Shown here: piece after piece, positions 45,147 to 52,875 of the stretch
How the letters are laid out: each line of letters begins with the position of its first letter
How positions within the stretch are numbered: the first letter of the stretch is position 1
DNA from: Leptolyngbya sp. SIOISBB
GTDB taxonomy: Bacteria > Cyanobacteriota > Cyanobacteriia > Phormidesmidales > Phormidesmidaceae
DNA length: 64,000 bases
Direction: 5' to 3'
Assembly (NCBI GenBank): GCA_010671905.1
Contig: JAAHII010000001.1
Span: 6,596,026-6,660,025 of the forward strand
Made by a program: the position numbers and the translations under genes
Notes under the pieces: model-generated
What the model was told of the DNA's origin: nothing
The model's input: the letters and a program-made list of their open reading frames with translations, nothing else
Database searches by the model: none

Positions 45147-46244
45147 TCAAACTGGACTGATCTGAGCTTGCAAACGCGCTATCAGTTGTTGGCTCGTCGT
45201 TGTGGGGGCTTCGGCCGCCATCAGCGCTCGCACGATGGCGACGCGATCGCCCCCGGCAGCCATCACCTCATCCAGGTTTTGTGTATCAATACCGCCAATC
45301 GCAAAGAACGGCACGGAGGCATGGGCGGCGGCATAACGGACATATTCCAGCCCCGCAGCGGCTTTATTTGGTTTCGTTGGCGTTGCGTAGACCGGGCCAA
45401 CCCCGATGTAATCAGCGCCCTCGGCTAAAGCTTTAGCCATCTCTTCTGGGTTGGTGGTCGAGCGTCCAATGATTCGATCGCTCCCCAAGAGCTGACGAGC
45501 CGTCTCAATCGGCAAATCTTGCTGGCCCAAATGGACTCCATCCGCATCGACAGCCAGCGCTAAATCAACTCGATCGTTGATCAAAAACAACGCTCCATAC
45601 TGATGACATAAGGCCTTGAGCTGCTGGGCGATGACCAGGCGATCACAATCGTTGCCGGTTTTTTCGCGATATTGCACCAAAGGTAAGCCACCCTGCAAAG
45701 CCGCCTCTACCACCGACAGCAAATTAGGGGAAGGCGATGTTACCAGATACAGTTGTGCCTTGAGCAACTGCTGAAAGCGCTGATGTCCCATGATTGTGCT
45801 CTCTAGACTATAGATCTGGTAGCGCCATTGTTTGCAGGCGGCCGCCAGATCTGGCTGATGAATTTTGCCGAACTCTTCGAGCGATCGCAGGGCTTCTTCG
45901 ACGCGGCAAAAGTTGGCCTGTAAAACCTGGGTAACGCCCGTCCGAATCTGTTCTTGCGGATGGGTAATCGAGGTACCAGTATCATTCGGCGTATCGCGAG
46001 CAGCCCGCAAATCAGCCGTGTGCCACTGTCCCACACTTTGCCGTAAATGCTTGAACTTGTCTGTCAGCTCATGATGGTTGAGCCCAAAACGACACCAGTC
46101 TTCTAAGACGCGCATGCCTTCACGGGCGCGATCGAGATTAGCGTCCAAAATGCGGCGAACGGTGAGGTCTGTCGTAGACGCTGGTAAAGCGGAATGATTC
46201 ATGCCAACGGGGGATAACGATACTGCCATGCTAAAGAACATCAA
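45147..46244 (-). CDS. thiE: Thiamine phosphate synthase ThiE, two-domain cyanobacterial form
   Basis: Joins the pyrimidine and thiazole halves of thiamine phosphate. The N-terminal 145 residues form the extra helical domain seen in cyanobacterial ThiE (RRILDANLDRAREGMRVLED, then FCRVEEALRSLEEFGK). The C-terminal TIM barrel (about 160-360) has the family motifs (LFLINDRVDLALAVDADGVH, GRSTTNPEEMAKALAEGADY with the GPVYATPTK phosphate region). Possible starts are 46244, 46229 and 46202; the N-terminal domain itself begins after 46180. It forms a thiE-thiS operon. Confidence 0.93.
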   Translation of the reverse strand: MMFFSMAVSLSPVGMNHSALPASTTDLTVRRILDANLDRAREGMRVLEDWCRFGLNHHELTDKFKHLRQSVGQWHTADLRAARDTPNDTGTSITHPQEQIRTGVTQVLQANFCRVEEALRSLEEFGKIHQPDLAAACKQWRYQIYSLESTIMGHQRFQQLLKAQLYLVTSPSPNLLSVVEAALQGGLPLVQYREKTGNDCDRLVIAQQLKALCHQYGALFLINDRVDLALAVDADGVHLGQQDLPIETARQLLGSDRIIGRSTTNPEEMAKALAEGADYIGVGPVYATPTKPNKAAAGLEYVRYAAAHASVPFFAIGGIDTQNLDEVMAAGGDRVAIVRALMAAEAPTTTSQQLIARLQAQISPV

Positions 46245-46389: not shown

Positions 46390-46890
46390 TTAGGGACAAA
46401 AGAGCGTCTCGCGAGTGGCCCGACCGGTGACTGGATTCGTGCCCTGAGCCACGTCACATAACCGGGCATTAGTCAGTGGATCGAGTAAGACATCGGTGAA
46501 ATCAGCGCCGTCGATGACAGCGTCGCGAAAGTCCGTATCAAAGGCATAGGCCCCTTCGAGGATGGCATTGGTCAAATCGGCGCGAATAAACCGGGCTCCA
46601 TCTAATGTGGCCCCAGTCATGTCGACCCCGCTGAGATTTGCCTGACTCAACGTTGTATCAAATAGCCGTGCCCCCCGCAACGTCGCTCCATGGAGATCGG
46701 CATTGGCCATATCAGCCCGGATGAAATCGTCGCCGCTGAGGTCTTGATTAGAAAAGTCCGCATAGCGGAGACTCTGGCGATCATAGCTCTCTGCCAAAGC
46801 TGGGGTCACACCCACCATCAAAATCGCGATAACTAGCAAAATACTCAAGATCATACGACGAGCGATCGCTTTGATACGCAGAGTTTTCAT
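46390..46890 (-). CDS. Exported pentapeptide-repeat protein
   Basis: A 166-residue protein from ATG 46890. The signal peptide (MILSILLVIAILMVGVTPAL then AES) sends it across a membrane, probably into the thylakoid lumen. About 16-18 pentapeptide repeats follow (YADFSNQDLSGDDFIRADMA and on), which build a right-handed beta-helix, and it ends in a small C-terminal cap with two Cys (ARLCDVAQG ... ETLFCP). It resembles lumenal pentapeptide proteins of cyanobacteria and plants, whose function is unresolved. The frame start at 46920 adds ten residues and is less likely. Confidence 0.85.
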   Translation of the reverse strand: MKTLRIKAIARRMILSILLVIAILMVGVTPALAESYDRQSLRYADFSNQDLSGDDFIRADMANADLHGATLRGARLFDTTLSQANLSGVDMTGATLDGARFIRADLTNAILEGAYAFDTDFRDAVIDGADFTDVLLDPLTNARLCDVAQGTNPVTGRATRETLFCP

Positions 46891-47058
46891 GACGCCAACT
46901 GCCGACTCTTGACTCAACAATTGTGATCCTACAGGGCAGCAGTCACTGACGGAAGGGTTAAGGAAGTGGGGTCGGAGAAAGAGAGCGTAGTCAAAAAGCC
47001 GGAGCGCCGGAGGGCAGGCTGGAAAATGTTCCTGCGTCCAACCACCGGCATACCGACG

Positions 47059-49077
47059 TTACTTACCGGTTCTTTCTGTGGCGGCGACCTGTAGCACTTG
47101 CACTAACCAGGCCGACATGCGCTCTGCTGACTCGGGTGTACTCCACGAAGCTTCTGCGACTAAGCAAGGAAAGACCGAAATCTGCTTGATAGCATGGGCC
47201 GACTGAGTGGCCGCCATGGTCAGGGTGATCAGCGGCAGAGACGTTAACTCAGCAAATTGGCTGAAGGTTTGCAAATAAGTTTGAGGATCCGCGATCTCGG
47301 GATCGAGCACGGCGACATCAGGTTGCCAGACCCGACGCAGCAAACTCGCCTGCTGCAAATCATCAACTTCTAAAACCCGACAGCCAAAATCGTGAAAGAT
47401 ATGAGGGAACTGTTGACTGGGTGAGGGTGATTGCTCACCCGATCGCAGATACAAAATTGTTAAACGATTCGGGGACGGCATGGCCGTGGGGGGGTGCAGC
47501 AATACACTACCCAGACCATCCGTTGGCCAAAGCAACTCTCGATCGACGGGGAGTTCTCCCAAATAAGCCGAGAGGTGAGGCGGCACCAATGCCACCAATA
47601 AACGATTGTTGGCGGTCAAAGCGGTTCGCAGCACTTGCAGGTCTTCTCGCATGTGCTGCGATTGCAGCAACACCAAAACCGCTGCCACCGGCAGATGCGT
47701 GGCCACCTCTAAAGCATCTTGAATGTGAGAGGTAATTAATAACTGATAGTTTAGTTGGTTAGCTTGTTGCCATAGCGTTGCCAGTGACTCGGTGTCGAAA
47801 GGAGCGACAGTTAACAAAAAACGGCTGCTTCTGGTGGCGGCCGGTAGTGGCGAGATCGGCAAGAGTAAGGTTGGACAAATGATCGCCGACTGTTGCACGG
47901 TCATCACGAGGTCACCTTGGTGCAATTGGGCTAGTTTTCTAACGAGCAGCCATTCTAGCCAATGTCCCATTTCTGCAGATAGCGGAGTGGCCGCGGCCGG
48001 AGCCTCGCCAAAGGGGCGCATCACCATTGCTTGTGAAAGATGCTCCAGGGAAAATTGGTCCTTTACACCAGATATTGAAAATCCAATCCAGTTGTTCCAC
48101 AGTCGCATGTCTAAGGGGAGCGGTGCGGCTGCCGTTGCGGTCTCGCTGCTGGCGAGAGCCGTTTGCATTAAACAGCTAAGCATTTGCCGCAGCCGCACCT
48201 GGTCTGCCACCAGGGTGAGCGGTGGTGACGTTTGCAAAATGAGGGGGGTGGCCACTGGCGTGGTGGGCGGTTCTAGACCGGCTCTGAGGGCGGCTTGCCC
48301 ATAGGCTTCGCTCCAGAGTGTGTCTAAGTCAATCACCTGAGGCACTAGCTGCAGCGTGCCACTTTCAATGCGACCTAAATCAACGAGCGTATTGACCCAG
48401 GCGGCTAACCGTCGGCAGTGTTGCTGAATCAGACTGGTATATCTCACCTGCCGTGTGGTCAGGTTTTCACTGCTCATTTTGAGCAGGCTAGACAATCCTA
48501 ATAATGACGTTAGCGGTGTTTTGAGTTCGTGGCCGAGATAGGTCAATAGGGCAGTATTACTCTGCGACGCCAGGTTCTCTTTTTTGATGGCGGCGATTTC
48601 GACCTGGTGCCCCTCGGTCGAGAGTGTCTGAACAGCGGCAGCCAGAAAGCTGGGGAGGTCTAACATCCCTTGGTAGCGTTGTTGTTGATCGACCACAACC
48701 CAGTGCTGCTCTGGAGCGGTGACAACCCGTTGAATTGCCGTTTCGATCGGGGTCTGAAGTTCGATTAGGGCCAGCGTATCAGCGGTTTCCTCTAAGGTGG
48801 CTAATACCATTTCTGGCTCTCGCGGGGCGGCAACATGGGGGGAAGAGAGGGCTGACCGCGAAACATCAGGGAGATTAACAAAGCTGAGCAATTGGTTCAG
48901 AGAGAGGCCATGTAGCGGGAACCCATCCTGATCGAGCAGGACGAGATAATCAGCCTGACTTTCTACGCAGTCTGCTAGCCAGCGACTGGGAGGCTCAAAG
49001 ACGACGCTAGCCGGAATCAATCGGATAAATTCAGCCAGAGATGGCAGGGGCATGTCCGATGTGGCCTTGATTGACAA
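47059..49077 (-). CDS. Histidine-kinase-like protein with CBS pair and degenerate ATPase domain, divergent from kaiA
   Basis: A 672-residue cytoplasmic protein. Residues about 20-150 look like a CBS pair (DYLVLLDQDGFPLHGLSLNQ and HWVVVDQQQRYQGMLDLPSF). A dimerisation/phosphoacceptor domain follows with H183 in YLGHELKTPLTSLLGLSSLL. The ATPase domain is recognisable by order but has lost key motifs: no Asn in the N-box (QMLSCLMQTALAS), no DxGxG, and no G-x-G-L-G. The C-terminal 240 residues resemble two degraded receiver-like folds (LLITSHIQDALEVATHLPVA and VLDPEIADPQTYLQTF) without a phosphorylation site. It is divergent from kaiA across a 430-base region, so a clock role is plausible but unproven. 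Confidence 0.75.
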   Translation of the reverse strand: MSIKATSDMPLPSLAEFIRLIPASVVFEPPSRWLADCVESQADYLVLLDQDGFPLHGLSLNQLLSFVNLPDVSRSALSSPHVAAPREPEMVLATLEETADTLALIELQTPIETAIQRVVTAPEQHWVVVDQQQRYQGMLDLPSFLAAAVQTLSTEGHQVEIAAIKKENLASQSNTALLTYLGHELKTPLTSLLGLSSLLKMSSENLTTRQVRYTSLIQQHCRRLAAWVNTLVDLGRIESGTLQLVPQVIDLDTLWSEAYGQAALRAGLEPPTTPVATPLILQTSPPLTLVADQVRLRQMLSCLMQTALASSETATAAAPLPLDMRLWNNWIGFSISGVKDQFSLEHLSQAMVMRPFGEAPAAATPLSAEMGHWLEWLLVRKLAQLHQGDLVMTVQQSAIICPTLLLPISPLPAATRSSRFLLTVAPFDTESLATLWQQANQLNYQLLITSHIQDALEVATHLPVAAVLVLLQSQHMREDLQVLRTALTANNRLLVALVPPHLSAYLGELPVDRELLWPTDGLGSVLLHPPTAMPSPNRLTILYLRSGEQSPSPSQQFPHIFHDFGCRVLEVDDLQQASLLRRVWQPDVAVLDPEIADPQTYLQTFSQFAELTSLPLITLTMAATQSAHAIKQISVFPCLVAEASWSTPESAERMSAWLVQVLQVAATERTGK

Positions 49078-49510
49078 AAACAGGAAATTTTAGAGAGGGT
49101 GCGAGTAAGATCTTTTCAGCAGTGGTGGTGATCGGAACATTAGCTGTCTCATTAGTCGTGAGAGCAAATACACTAATCGCTTGTCGGCCGGTCAATCACC
49201 TGTGCAAATGAGAGCATTGATCTAAAGCGCTGAGTAGATTGGTGATTACCATTCAGATTGCGTTTATGAAAGCTTAGAGTACGATTAAGTTAAAGAAATA
49301 TGAATGCAGCAGCTCATGCGATGGTGAAACTTTGTGTGACGCAACTGTCCTTAACACAGTATAAAGCTGTTATCCCTAATAAAAATGAGTCTCGCTACCC
49401 CAGTAGGATAACCAGGATTGAGACGTTTATGCTAAAACTGCTGTCCAGGCGGCTTGCAGGGACCTTAGTCAATGTCTTTTTCCGCAGCTGAGTCGTGATA
49501 TCCGAGAGAG
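49078..49510. promoter_or_regulatory. Divergent promoter region, kinase-like gene and kaiA
   Basis: 433 AT-rich bases without an accepted gene. Both divergent promoters should be here. No obvious inverted repeat or RNA is seen. A GAGAGAG lies just before the kaiA start. Confidence 0.4.
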
Positions 49511-50434
49511 TTGAAACCCTTGCATGCACATTTTCTGATCGGCGGTTTTACCCCTCAATCTTTGCTCCGACACACCTTAGAGACTGAGTTGGATCAACAC
49601 GCTTATCAAATTCACACCGATACTGTGATTGATGCCTTGTTTGAGTGGGTGTGGCAAAATCGGCATCGGATAGATTGCCTGGTGTTGGAATTTTCGTCCG
49701 ATATCCTGCCGATGCTAGAGCAGCTTAAGCGTCAGGATGTCTTGCTGCCAGTTTTGCTAGTTGATCTTGCTGGTAGTGAAACTAGCCACTTTGATGGCGA
49801 CTGTGATGATCCGGCCTGTTCCGCACAAGTATCACCGAGTTGTCAAACCCTGGCGGCCAGTTACCACGAAAAAGTGATCTGTATTGCAGCATCTGATCTG
49901 CGACAGCTTGACAACTATATCCAACAGGCGATCAATCAATTTTTGACCCTGCCTTACTTTCAGCCCCCGGCTGAGGACATTGCGCCGCCGTCAGCTGAGC
50001 ATCCCCAGTTTGCCCTAAGTTTGCAGCAACAGCGGTTGGCTAATAAGCTACGTGAGCGATTGGGTTATGTTGGCGTCTTTTATAAGCGGGATCCCAGCAA
50101 CTTTGTGCGCCATCTAGAGCCAGAGCAACGGACCGAACTCTTTAACAAACTTCGCAAAGACTATCGCTTGTTGGTGTTGAACTACTTCAAAGACGATGAC
50201 CAGCTCAACGAAAAAATTGACAACTTAGTTAACACGGCTTTTTTCGCCGATGTTTCGGTTTCTAAGATTGTTGAGGTTCATATGGAGCTAATGGAAACGT
50301 TTGCCAAACAGTTGAAGCTAGAAGGTCGTAGCGAAGAAATCTTGCTGGATTATCGTCTAACTTTAATTGATGTCGTTGCCCATTTGTGTGAGATGTATCG
50401 TCGCTCAATTCCTCGGGAACCGTACAAGGGTTAG
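49511..50434 (+). CDS. kaiA: Circadian clock protein KaiA
   Basis: KaiA promotes KaiC autophosphorylation by binding its C-terminal tail. The 307-residue protein has an N-terminal pseudo-receiver domain (about residues 1-135), a linker and the conserved C-terminal helical dimer domain (RLANKLRERLGYVGVFYKRD through ILLDYRLTLIDVVAHLCEMY). The C-terminal domain is very close to that of known KaiA proteins. The start is TTG at 49511; TTG at 49520 is nine bases after GAGAGAG and is also possible. It is long-form KaiA, as in most non-heterocystous species. Confidence 0.95.
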   Translation: MKPLHAHFLIGGFTPQSLLRHTLETELDQHAYQIHTDTVIDALFEWVWQNRHRIDCLVLEFSSDILPMLEQLKRQDVLLPVLLVDLAGSETSHFDGDCDDPACSAQVSPSCQTLAASYHEKVICIAASDLRQLDNYIQQAINQFLTLPYFQPPAEDIAPPSAEHPQFALSLQQQRLANKLRERLGYVGVFYKRDPSNFVRHLEPEQRTELFNKLRKDYRLLVLNYFKDDDQLNEKIDNLVNTAFFADVSVSKIVEVHMELMETFAKQLKLEGRSEEILLDYRLTLIDVVAHLCEMYRRSIPREPYKG

Positions 50435-50846
50435 CTACCATCCAGAGTGCTTTCGACTGGCATTATTAGAGTGCTCCCCAGGCAGATATTGTTTGCTACT
50501 CCGCCAATCGAACTGACCTAGAGGCTACACCAGCTGATTTAATTGCCTGAACTCTAAAGAAAAACAGGGAGATGAGTGACCTTTGAGGTTGTCTTGATAG
50601 CTTTGACTAAGTTGCCAAAGGTTGGAGCTGCTTCAGGCTGAAGTCTTGGCTGAGTTTACACCTAGAGCGAAGTCATGCAAGAGCGTTGAATTTGACCTGA
50701 TGAGCCTGGCTGGTGACTGTCTGCTGCCTTCGTTGCGTAGAAAAACGAATACACAGCCCTTGACACACTAGTTTCTGATTGTGCCAATCTGTACTCATGA
50801 CTGAGTGAGTTTCTACGTTTGTCATCTTGTTTTGGTTGATTTATCA
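50435..50846. promoter_or_regulatory. kaiA-kaiB intergenic region, probable kaiBC promoter
   Basis: 412 bases without a gene. In cyanobacteria kaiBC usually has its own promoter between kaiA and kaiB, and the length here is consistent with that. No sequence motif is certain. Confidence 0.45.
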
Positions 50847-51161
50847 ATGACCCCCGCCAAAAAGACTTACGTTCTCAAGTTGTATGTTGCTGGCAATACC
50901 CCGAACTCTGTGCGAGCGCTAAAAACTCTCAACCAAATCTTGGAACAGGAATTTCAGGGGGTCTATGCACTTAAAGTCATTGATGTACTGAAAAATCCTC
51001 AGCTGGCTGAAGAAGATAAGATTCTCGCAACGCCGACCCTAGCTAAAATTTTGCCGCCCCCCGTCCGGAAGATTATTGGCGATTTGTCCGATCGCGAGCG
51101 GGTGTTAATTGGCCTCGATCTGCTTTATGAAGAGCTTCGAGAAGATGATCTCTATAATTAG
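50847..51161 (+). CDS. kaiB: Circadian clock protein KaiB
   Basis: KaiB is a fold-switching thioredoxin-like protein that binds the KaiC CI ring and sequesters KaiA. The 104 residues from ATG 50847 ([20 protein letters not shown]) are typical, including [20 protein letters not shown] and [20 protein letters not shown]. The C-terminal acidic tail ([10 protein letters not shown]) is as usual. The frame opens upstream at 50805, but those 14 residues are not part of the family. Confidence 0.97.
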
Positions 51162-51321: not shown

Positions 51322-52875
51322 ATGAGTCAACCTTTCGACACTGATATTTACTCGATCACACGCTCTAATAGCATTGCTAAAATTCGGACCCTGATTGAAG
51401 GGTTCGACGATATTAGTCATGGCGGCTTGCCGGTGGGTAGAACAACCCTTGTCAGCGGCACCTCGGGAACTGGCAAGACCCTCATGGCAGTGCAATTTTT
51501 ATACCTCGGGATTGTCCATTTTGACGAGCCTGGAGTCTTTGTTACCTTTGAAGAATCGCCTGCCGACATTGTTAAAAATGCGCTGAGCTTTGGCTGGGAT
51601 CTGCAGAAGCTGATTGATGACGGCAAGCTCTTCATTCTAGATGCCTCGCCGGATCCTGAAGGGCAGGATGTGGTGGGCAACTTTGATTTGTCAGCGTTGA
51701 TTGAGCGGATTCAATACGCTATTCGCAAATATAAGGCGCAGCGGGTTTCGATCGATTCAGTGACAGCCATTTTTCAGCAGTATGATGCGGCTTCGGTCGT
51801 TCGGCGAGAGATCTTTCGGCTGTCGGCTCGGCTCAAGCAAATGGGTGTGACCAGCATTATGACCACGGAACGGGTCGATGAATACGGCCCGGTTGCCCGC
51901 TACGGCGTCGAAGAGTTTGTGTCAGATAATGTTGTCATCGTCCGCAATGTGCTGGAAGGAGAACGGCGGCGACGCACGCTCGAAATTTTGAAACTGCGGG
52001 GCACCACCCATATGAAGGGAGAATATCCCTTCACGATTATTGATAATGGCATCAATATCTTCCCGCTAGGGGCAATGCGTCTCACGCAGCGATCGTCCAA
52101 TGTGCGGGTTTCGTCAGGCGTCACAACGCTGGATGAAATGTGCGGTGGGGGCTTTTTCCGCGATTCGATTATTCTGGCTACCGGGGCCACCGGTACCGGT
52201 AAAACCCTATTGGTCAGCAAGTTTTTGGAAAATGGTTGTGCCAATGGGGAAAAGGTCATTTTGTTCGCTTATGAGGAATCTCGGGCTCAACTCCTGCGTA
52301 ACGCTACCTCTTGGGGCATTGATTTCGAAGATCTAGAGCAGCGTGGCCTCCTCAAAATTCTCTGTGCTTATCCTGAATCGGCGGGCTTGGAAGATCACTT
52401 GCAAATTATCAAGTCGCAGATCTCGCAGTTCAAGCCTTCGCGCATTGCGATCGATTCGCTGTCAGCCCTTGATCGAGGGGTGAGCAACAGTTCTTTTCGA
52501 CAATTTGTGATTGGTGTCACGGGTTATGCCAAGCAAGAAGAGATCACTGGCTTCTTCACCAATACGACAGAGCAATTTATGGGGCTGCATTCCATTACGG
52601 AATCGCATATCTCCACGATTACAGACACCATTTTGATGCTGCAATACGTGGAAGTCCGGGGAGAGATGTCTCGGGCACTTAACGTCTTTAAGATGCGCGG
52701 GTCTTGGCACGATAAGGGCATTCGCGAATATCAAATTACGGATGGTGGTCCTGACATTAAGGACTCCTTCCGCAATATGGAGCGCGTGATCAGTGGTTCA
52801 CCCACGCGCATTGCGGTAGACGAGAAAAGTGAACTCTCACGGATTGTGCAAGGCGTACAGGACGAAGACGGTTAA
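51322..52875 (+). CDS. kaiC: Circadian clock ATPase/kinase KaiC
   Basis: The central oscillator protein, a double RecA-like ATPase that forms hexamers. The 517 residues align without gaps to the reference numbering. CI has Walker A GTSGTGKT (46-53) and catalytic E77-E78. CII has Walker A GATGTGKT (288-295) and catalytic E318-E319. The phosphorylation sites S431 and T432 (SHISTITDT) and T426 are present. The C-terminal tail that KaiA binds (VDEKSELSRIVQGVQDED) is intact. It follows kaiB by 160 bases. Confidence 0.98.
   Translation: MSQPFDTDIYSITRSNSIAKIRTLIEGFDDISHGGLPVGRTTLVSGTSGTGKTLMAVQFLYLGIVHFDEPGVFVTFEESPADIVKNALSFGWDLQKLIDDGKLFILDASPDPEGQDVVGNFDLSALIERIQYAIRKYKAQRVSIDSVTAIFQQYDAASVVRREIFRLSARLKQMGVTSIMTTERVDEYGPVARYGVEEFVSDNVVIVRNVLEGERRRRTLEILKLRGTTHMKGEYPFTIIDNGINIFPLGAMRLTQRSSNVRVSSGVTTLDEMCGGGFFRDSIILATGATGTGKTLLVSKFLENGCANGEKVILFAYEESRAQLLRNATSWGIDFEDLEQRGLLKILCAYPESAGLEDHLQIIKSQISQFKPSRIAIDSLSALDRGVSNSSFRQFVIGVTGYAKQEEITGFFTNTTEQFMGLHSITESHISTITDTILMLQYVEVRGEMSRALNVFKMRGSWHDKGIREYQITDGGPDIKDSFRNMERVISGSPTRIAVDEKSELSRIVQGVQDEDG

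Follow-up and report, generated by a model that had tools for sequence, protein, structure and literature searches.

The window, a stretch of 64,000 nucleotides from Leptolyngbya sp. SIOISBB, carries kaiA, kaiB, and kaiC on the plus strand. A gene for a kinase-like protein, here named KX, lies on the minus strand, and a gap of 433 bp separates it from kaiA. KX and kaiABC are therefore back to back, as described in an earlier note made from the sequence. The features of the locus are as follows (coordinates are those of the window).

47059..49077, minus strand: KX, member of the kai-linked hybrid histidine kinase family, ATP site lost, 672 aa
48628..49050, minus strand: diverged CBS pair at the N-terminus, residues 10-150 (hhalign 99.6% to the N-termini of relatives)
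48529..48531, minus strand: phosphoacceptor His183, followed by Glu184 (H+1) and Thr187 (H+4)
48358..48570, minus strand: HisKA dimerisation/phosphoacceptor domain, residues 170-240 (Pfam HisKA, E 8e-14)
47848..48240, minus strand: degenerate HATPase (CA) domain, residues 280-410 (hhalign 99.5% to the intact HATPase of relatives)
47488..47826, minus strand: pseudo-receiver 1, residues 418-530 (hhalign 97.9% to the receiver of relatives)
47068..47466, minus strand: pseudo-receiver 2, residues 538-670 (receiver fold, VIA Z 13.4; hhalign 100% to relatives)
49078..49510, no strand: divergent intergenic region that KX and kaiA have in common, 433 bp
49511..50434, plus strand: kaiA (Pfam KaiA, 204.3 bits)
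50805..51161, plus strand: kaiB (NCBIfam circ_KaiB, 184.9 bits, above cut-off)
51322..52875, plus strand: kaiC (NCBIfam circ_KaiC, 1021.8 bits)

The reported minus-strand ORF is real and encodes 672 aa from a TTG codon; ORF reading revealed no internal stop in this copy. Codon 9 is an ATG (first base 49053) and is the start used by close relatives; judged from the sequence, it is the likelier start, in which case H183 would be H175. A ThiD2-ThiE type thiamine phosphate synthase (45147-46244) and a pentapeptide repeat protein (46390-46920) follow KX on the minus strand. The window contains a second histidine kinase ORF at approximately 61.1-61.9 kb (G000:C1:6657117-6657941, 987-aa frame).

HisKA was the sole Pfam match of the window protein (residues 175-240, 51.9 bits, cut-off 26.9), whereas HATPase_c, CBS, and Response_reg gave no match up to E 1. 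The domain is full and H183 is present, which bears out the perfect phosphoacceptor motif claimed in the earlier note. The claim that the N, G1, and G2 boxes are unrecognisable was likewise correct. In alignment with an intact relative, the N box SNAFKFT is replaced by QTALASS, the G1 box (WDTGIGIP) is absent, and the G2 box GTGLGL is replaced by GHWLEW, in which one of the three Gly is left. Profile comparison identified the same region as a diverged HATPase (hhalign 99.5%), in which the N and G1 boxes are lost and the G2 box is largely lost, with core helices and strands kept. The protein thus has the HisKA domain with His that marks a histidine kinase but lacks an HATPase_c domain with N, G1, and G2 boxes. 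Among the 39 members of alignment A3 (the window protein and 38 of the 66 KX from the named kaiA loci described below), Pfam HATPase_c was found in 38, the window protein being the only miss.

The N-terminus gave no match to a GAF domain and aligns with a CBS pair instead. The CBS pair proposed earlier holds by homology, the window protein itself being below Pfam detection; a Pfam CBS match at E 0.01 was obtained for 22 of the 39 proteins in A3. The CBS pair is among the least conserved parts of KX. The ribose-site nucleotide pattern of CBS domains is G-x-h-T/S-x-x-D, and this pattern is absent from the window CBS pair when read by eye. Given this poor conservation and missing pattern, the suggestion that the CBS pair senses adenine nucleotides is unsupported.

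Structure prediction with comparison to HATPase domains, which the earlier note had called for, was carried out with AF2. The model has a mean pLDDT of 69.1, with 173 of 672 residues below pLDDT 50. A histidine-kinase fold extends over residues ~162-411 and a receiver fold over 535-670 (VIA Z 13.4, rmsd 2.9, 124 aligned). For the kinase part, HprS, GacS, HK853, DivL, and RetS are near-ties (Z 14.3-13.1). The ATP-lid region and the second CBS half are poorly modelled; the first CBS half is confident. The input alignment consisted of 38 mostly ATP-intact relatives, and the model may lean to their fold; hence, the fold of the CA part as modelled is likely rather than proven.

Of the 386 genomes of the phylum that were searched, 145 contained a match at 1e-10. 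Many of these matches are ordinary kinases; the best ones include long relatives collinear with KX, and 60 loci of the best matches were taken for a gene-order survey. KX and kaiA lie in one stretch in 51 of the 60 loci and are divergent in all 51. In six of the other nine, KaiA is on a different contig (G105, G111, G123, G157, G203, and G262). KX is cut at the contig end in L059, with KaiA on a different contig, and a kaiA fragment lies beside KX in L070. G255, a genome with KX, gave no KaiA match. Starting from kaiA, we found KX in 66 of 80 named loci, divergent in 66 of 66, and in 66 of the 74 with more than 1 kb before kaiA; these loci are the best 80 of 519 KaiA relatives, ranked by likeness to one KaiA, and the share is not a phylum average. 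With the gap restricted to between -300 and 3000 bp, 155 of the 156 pooled loci were divergent, and the median gap was 339 bp; in the exception, L198, the order is unchanged and the ORF starts overlap. The earlier note made its reading depend on a conserved link to the kai locus, and such a link was found from both sides (66 of these best 80 kaiA loci and 51 of 60 KX loci).

Three alignments served for sequence comparison. A1 combines the window with 53 of the 60 loci, leaving out L050, L059, L063-L065, L086, and L088; A5, like A3, draws on the 66 KX of named loci, of which it has 40. In L086, L107, L141, and L257, KX is broken into two frames, and the best piece was counted. Merging of five duplicates reduced 167 KX to 162 distinct ones. 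A typical KX consists of a CBS pair, a PAS-like region, HisKA, an intact HATPase, and pseudo-receivers, with a median of 1079 aa in intact copies. In the model of an intact KX, extra domains separate the CBS pair from HisKA and follow at the C-terminus. Two of these labels are weaker than the others, namely the PAS-like label for the region before HisKA (Pfam PAS in 1 of 39) and the third-receiver label for the C-terminal domain (hhalign 88% to the first receiver). The window protein has the collinear CBS pair, HisKA, (pseudo-)HATPase, and receivers, and its gene is divergent to kaiA, as in the rest of the family. The PAS-like region of intact KX (residues ~200-388 in L097) has recurrent cysteines, C287 in 70 and C298 in 63 of 119 copies, which are possibly a redox or metal site. 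This region is lost from the window protein.

The ATP boxes are intact in 119 of the 162 distinct KX, partial in 4, and lost in 39, and the median length is 677 aa in lost copies versus 1079 aa in intact ones. The window clade has lost the boxes throughout (12 of 12 members, with all six genomes of its genus among them), and an HATPase_c match at E 0.01 was obtained in 1 of 11 members of this clade. Loss as a trait of the KX family is thus ruled out. The pseudokinase reading of the earlier note stands for the window protein, with its boxes lost and its H183 motif perfect, and fails as a description of the family.

The receiver-like C-terminus gave a different picture. The phospho-Asp of receiver 1 in intact KX is Asn in 109 of 119 copies, and Lys is at the Lys position in 3 of 119; receiver 2 has Asp in 78 and Lys in 0 of 119. 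Because the receiver columns are non-consensus in ATP-intact KX, the pseudo-receivers are ancestral and not part of ATP-site loss. We conclude, from alignment, that the lost ATP site is derived and lineage-specific, and that the missing acidic pockets are ancestral. Phospho-site columns are unmatched in pseudo-receiver 1 of the window protein. In pseudo-receiver 2, the acidic pair and Lys are absent but D592 is kept, and Asp occupies this position in 12 of 12 clade members. The receiver-like folds noticed earlier were therefore recovered (535-670), and the statement that they lack acidic pockets holds except for D592, retained at its usual place. Pseudo-receivers also occur in CikA and KaiA (PMC6378743, in the part available). 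Comparison of the KaiA N-terminal pseudo-receiver with the KX receivers gave hhalign 27% at best, and thus no special kinship. A likeness of receiver 1 of the intact model to RpaA (top, Z 21.3) was set aside, PleD being a tie and DivK lying within 1.

Placed on a KaiC tree of 168 rows, 31 of which are lost, ATP-site loss requires seven changes, four of them forced by well-supported branches; on a 64-row tree, it needs seven changes, six forced, one of the seven being L232, a partial copy scored as kept. A single origin is ruled out by these seven changes and by the AU test, in which 30 lost rows, a group set by the box rule and not by a tree, were rejected as one clade (p 2.9e-55). The window's family is a well-supported group (99) with two intact members, L230 and L042. 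A Thermosynechococcus-type lineage with lost sites falls outside this group, and the safest conclusion from the trees is therefore that ATP-site loss arose at least twice. Within the window's family, one loss fits: a branch whose support of 86 is not strong sets 24 rows apart. The single-genome losses L138, L142, L214, and L219 are weaker cases. L138 and L142 were scored as lost by rule yet match Pfam HATPase_c in A3; the 39 lost copies and the inferred number of origins are therefore, if anything, overestimates.

Among 20 further kai loci, chosen mainly in genomes where the KX match was weak or lacking, KX is absent in 14 and present in 6. Eleven of the 20 belong to the window's family and have no KX (L239-L241, L248-L254, and L258), which indicates that KX is dispensable and can leave the locus altogether. 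KX is also absent at a Synechococcus elongatus-like kai locus, where the ORF before kaiA was read as ribosomal protein L21; KaiA of this genome aligns end to end with KaiA of PDB 5n8y, which we take to be that of S. elongatus. At a kai locus labelled, by inference, as Synechocystis-like, KX is likewise absent. In one genome, KaiA matches PDB 5jwr, presumably Thermosynechococcus, almost residue for residue over its C-terminal part; the KX of this genome has lost its ATP site.

All 162 distinct KX have the phosphoacceptor His. Members of the window clade show no variation at the H, E, and T of HELKT, with Glu (H+1) and Thr (H+4) in 12 of 12. Of the 39 lost copies, 18 have Ala and 1 has Ser at H+1, so that phospho-chemistry may not be the common function; H+4 is Thr, Ser, or Asn in all 39. 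Copies L191-L199, from another genus of the window's family, and L219 have Ala at H+1 (HALKTP) with His kept. Ala at this position appears to be a further step of decay in which the His is retained. HisKA is 82-93% identical between the window and the five other genomes of its genus. Over KaiC-distance bins, the ratio of HATPase to HisKA identity is 0.95-1.09 in intact pairs and 0.57-0.79 in lost pairs, which suggests that in lost copies the HATPase has relaxed most relative to HisKA. At equal KaiC distance, HisKA itself also shows lower identity in lost pairs (for instance 76%, versus 96% in intact pairs, at KaiC 92-96%), which speaks against HisKA having kept its role in full. In the pair formed by the window protein and L221, pseudo-receiver 2 is 70% and HATPase 55% identical, and pseudo-receiver 2 is the best-kept part after HisKA in the window clade. 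Within the clade, core motifs of the CA domain show little or no variation (AD..RL.Q.L and WLE.LL.R.LA..H.G).

Whole-protein dN/dS was 0.065-0.24 in 10 distinct hand-picked pairs with a lost copy (11 rows, one pair being double since L192 and L235 are one gene, and one row comparing lost with partial) and 0.066-0.38 in six hand-picked intact pairs. The value of 0.065 was obtained for L221/L222 at dS 0.24, and the HATPase part of this pair gave 0.06. dS is saturated in both pairs with the window copy, and closer pairs of its relatives carry the argument. Lost KX copies are thus kept by purifying selection, which rules out a pseudogene.

Several known systems were compared with KX. SasA, like KX, is a HisKA kinase, and it is tied to the clock; it has a KaiB-like N-terminus. 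A separate SasA is encoded elsewhere in the genome (495.9 bits, above the model cut-off), so the standard output kinase is separate and a possible partner kinase is present; KX scored 23.9 bits with the SasA model (cut-off 342), with no full-length match. The CikA gene is not known to lie beside kaiA, and the CikA pseudo-receiver docks on fold-switched KaiB. CikA resembles KX as a histidine kinase that carries a pseudo-receiver, but KX has a CBS pair and two to three receiver-like domains in addition to lacking the GAF domain, a comparison made by domains and not by a tree. The available part of one source describes CikA as having a GAF domain and a pseudo-receiver and acting on the Kai system and RpaA (PMC6378743). 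By sequence, the best scores of KX were with HrmK- and GacS-type hybrid kinases (HrmK, 56.4 bits versus a cut-off of 725 bits).

RetS and KX share the HisKA kinase fold, RetS being in the structure lists of both models, but their identity is ~20%, their sensor domains differ, and KX has no known partner. RetS keeps a more complete CA domain. DivL of Caulobacter resembles the KX model in fold (Z 13.3) but is not known to have a phosphoacceptor His, the residue kept in every KX. ChrS of Corynebacterium is a pseudokinase from laboratory evolution, whereas the pseudokinase form of KX is natural and originated more than once. According to the accessible parts of the sources, RetS acts on the hybrid kinase GacS by heterodimer formation, phosphate siphoning, and dephosphorylation (PMC12189002); DivL and ChrS are non-catalytic histidine kinase relatives steering another kinase (PMC12189002, PMC9491836); and DivL and evolved ChrS function without their His (PMC9491836).

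On balance, we regard it as rather probable that the window KX is the pseudokinase form of a hybrid histidine kinase and a partner in clock-associated two-component signalling, similar to RetS and DivL. Such a protein would not autophosphorylate with ATP, would dimerise through HisKA, and would act as a non-catalytic or phosphatase-type partner of a clock-output kinase or response regulator, on the model of RetS on GacS and DivL on CckA. The kept HELKT motif would allow phosphate to be accepted or removed, and the pseudo-receivers may be docking modules, as is the CikA pseudo-receiver on KaiB. KX may instead be a scaffold without phospho-chemistry, in which HisKA is a dimerisation bundle only, the pseudo-receivers bind clock or other proteins, and H183 is never phosphorylated. 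The strong conservation of pseudo-receiver 2, Ala at H+1 in 18 of 39 lost copies, and the His-independent function of DivL and evolved ChrS (PMC9491836, in the part available) are in keeping with this, but His in 162 of 162 copies and H, E, and T in 12 of 12 clade members exceed the needs of a bare helical dimer, and we find a scaffold of this kind unlikely. A decaying relic with no present function is far less credible. The PAS-like region, the third receiver-like tail, and the ATP site are gone, length has fallen (median 677 versus 1079 aa), and KX is absent from 11 of the further kai loci, all in the window's family; this reading is, however, largely refuted by the selection signal (dN/dS 0.065-0.24 in lost-copy pairs), and the window copy has no internal stop and the lost state occurs in many genomes with gene order unchanged. 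Equally improbable is a kinase in disguise, with a divergent CA domain whose mode of nucleotide binding has escaped recognition. Near-invariant parts of the CA core and the remaining profile link to HATPase would fit such a kinase; against it, the N-box Asn and the G1 Asp with both Gly are missing, and G2 has one of three Gly.

The clock role of the favoured pseudokinase partner we infer from gene order alone. Gene order is not function, and KaiA is on another contig than KX in six genomes, both of which count against this explanation. The clock works in the S. elongatus genus, and KX is absent at the S. elongatus-like kai locus. KX could thus be a general metabolic or redox sensor that lies beside kaiA by chance; such an accident of neighbourhood is doubtful, since the divergent order recurs in distant lineages (51 of 60 KX loci, and 66 of the 80 kaiA loci ranked best among 519). 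More broadly, we tentatively propose that KX is a third two-component clock protein beside SasA and CikA, ancestrally a CBS/PAS-regulated kinase with its gene divergent to kaiABC, which became a pseudokinase in several lineages and would there set clock input or output through docking and through the uptake or removal of phosphate. It may have been overlooked because model strains lack KX at the kai locus.

Work on the Kai clock, one of the best-studied clocks in biology, has mostly used strains whose examined relatives are without KX at the kai locus. As a kinase whose gene keeps its place next to kaiA in distant cyanobacteria, KX is a strong candidate for a missing component of clock input or output. 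That the ATP site was lost repeatedly while the phosphoacceptor never was would also be a natural experiment on which kinase job the cell needs. We take all2883 to be the Anabaena gene before kaiA. It was found once in the literature, in the accessible part of a table of the predicted CRP regulon. No description of KX was found among the matches listed, subscription papers being mostly outside them, and the gene is not described in the parts available of PMC8113500, PMC2633013, PMC5520375, PMC10805033, PMC13421787, PMC9491836, PMC12189002, PMC6378743, and PMC9374696. Beyond kaiC, a second hybrid histidine kinase is encoded in L157, L169, and L082 (Microcoleus, Lyngbya, and one other genome); it scored 153-165 bits with the KX model and is not a KX orthologue.
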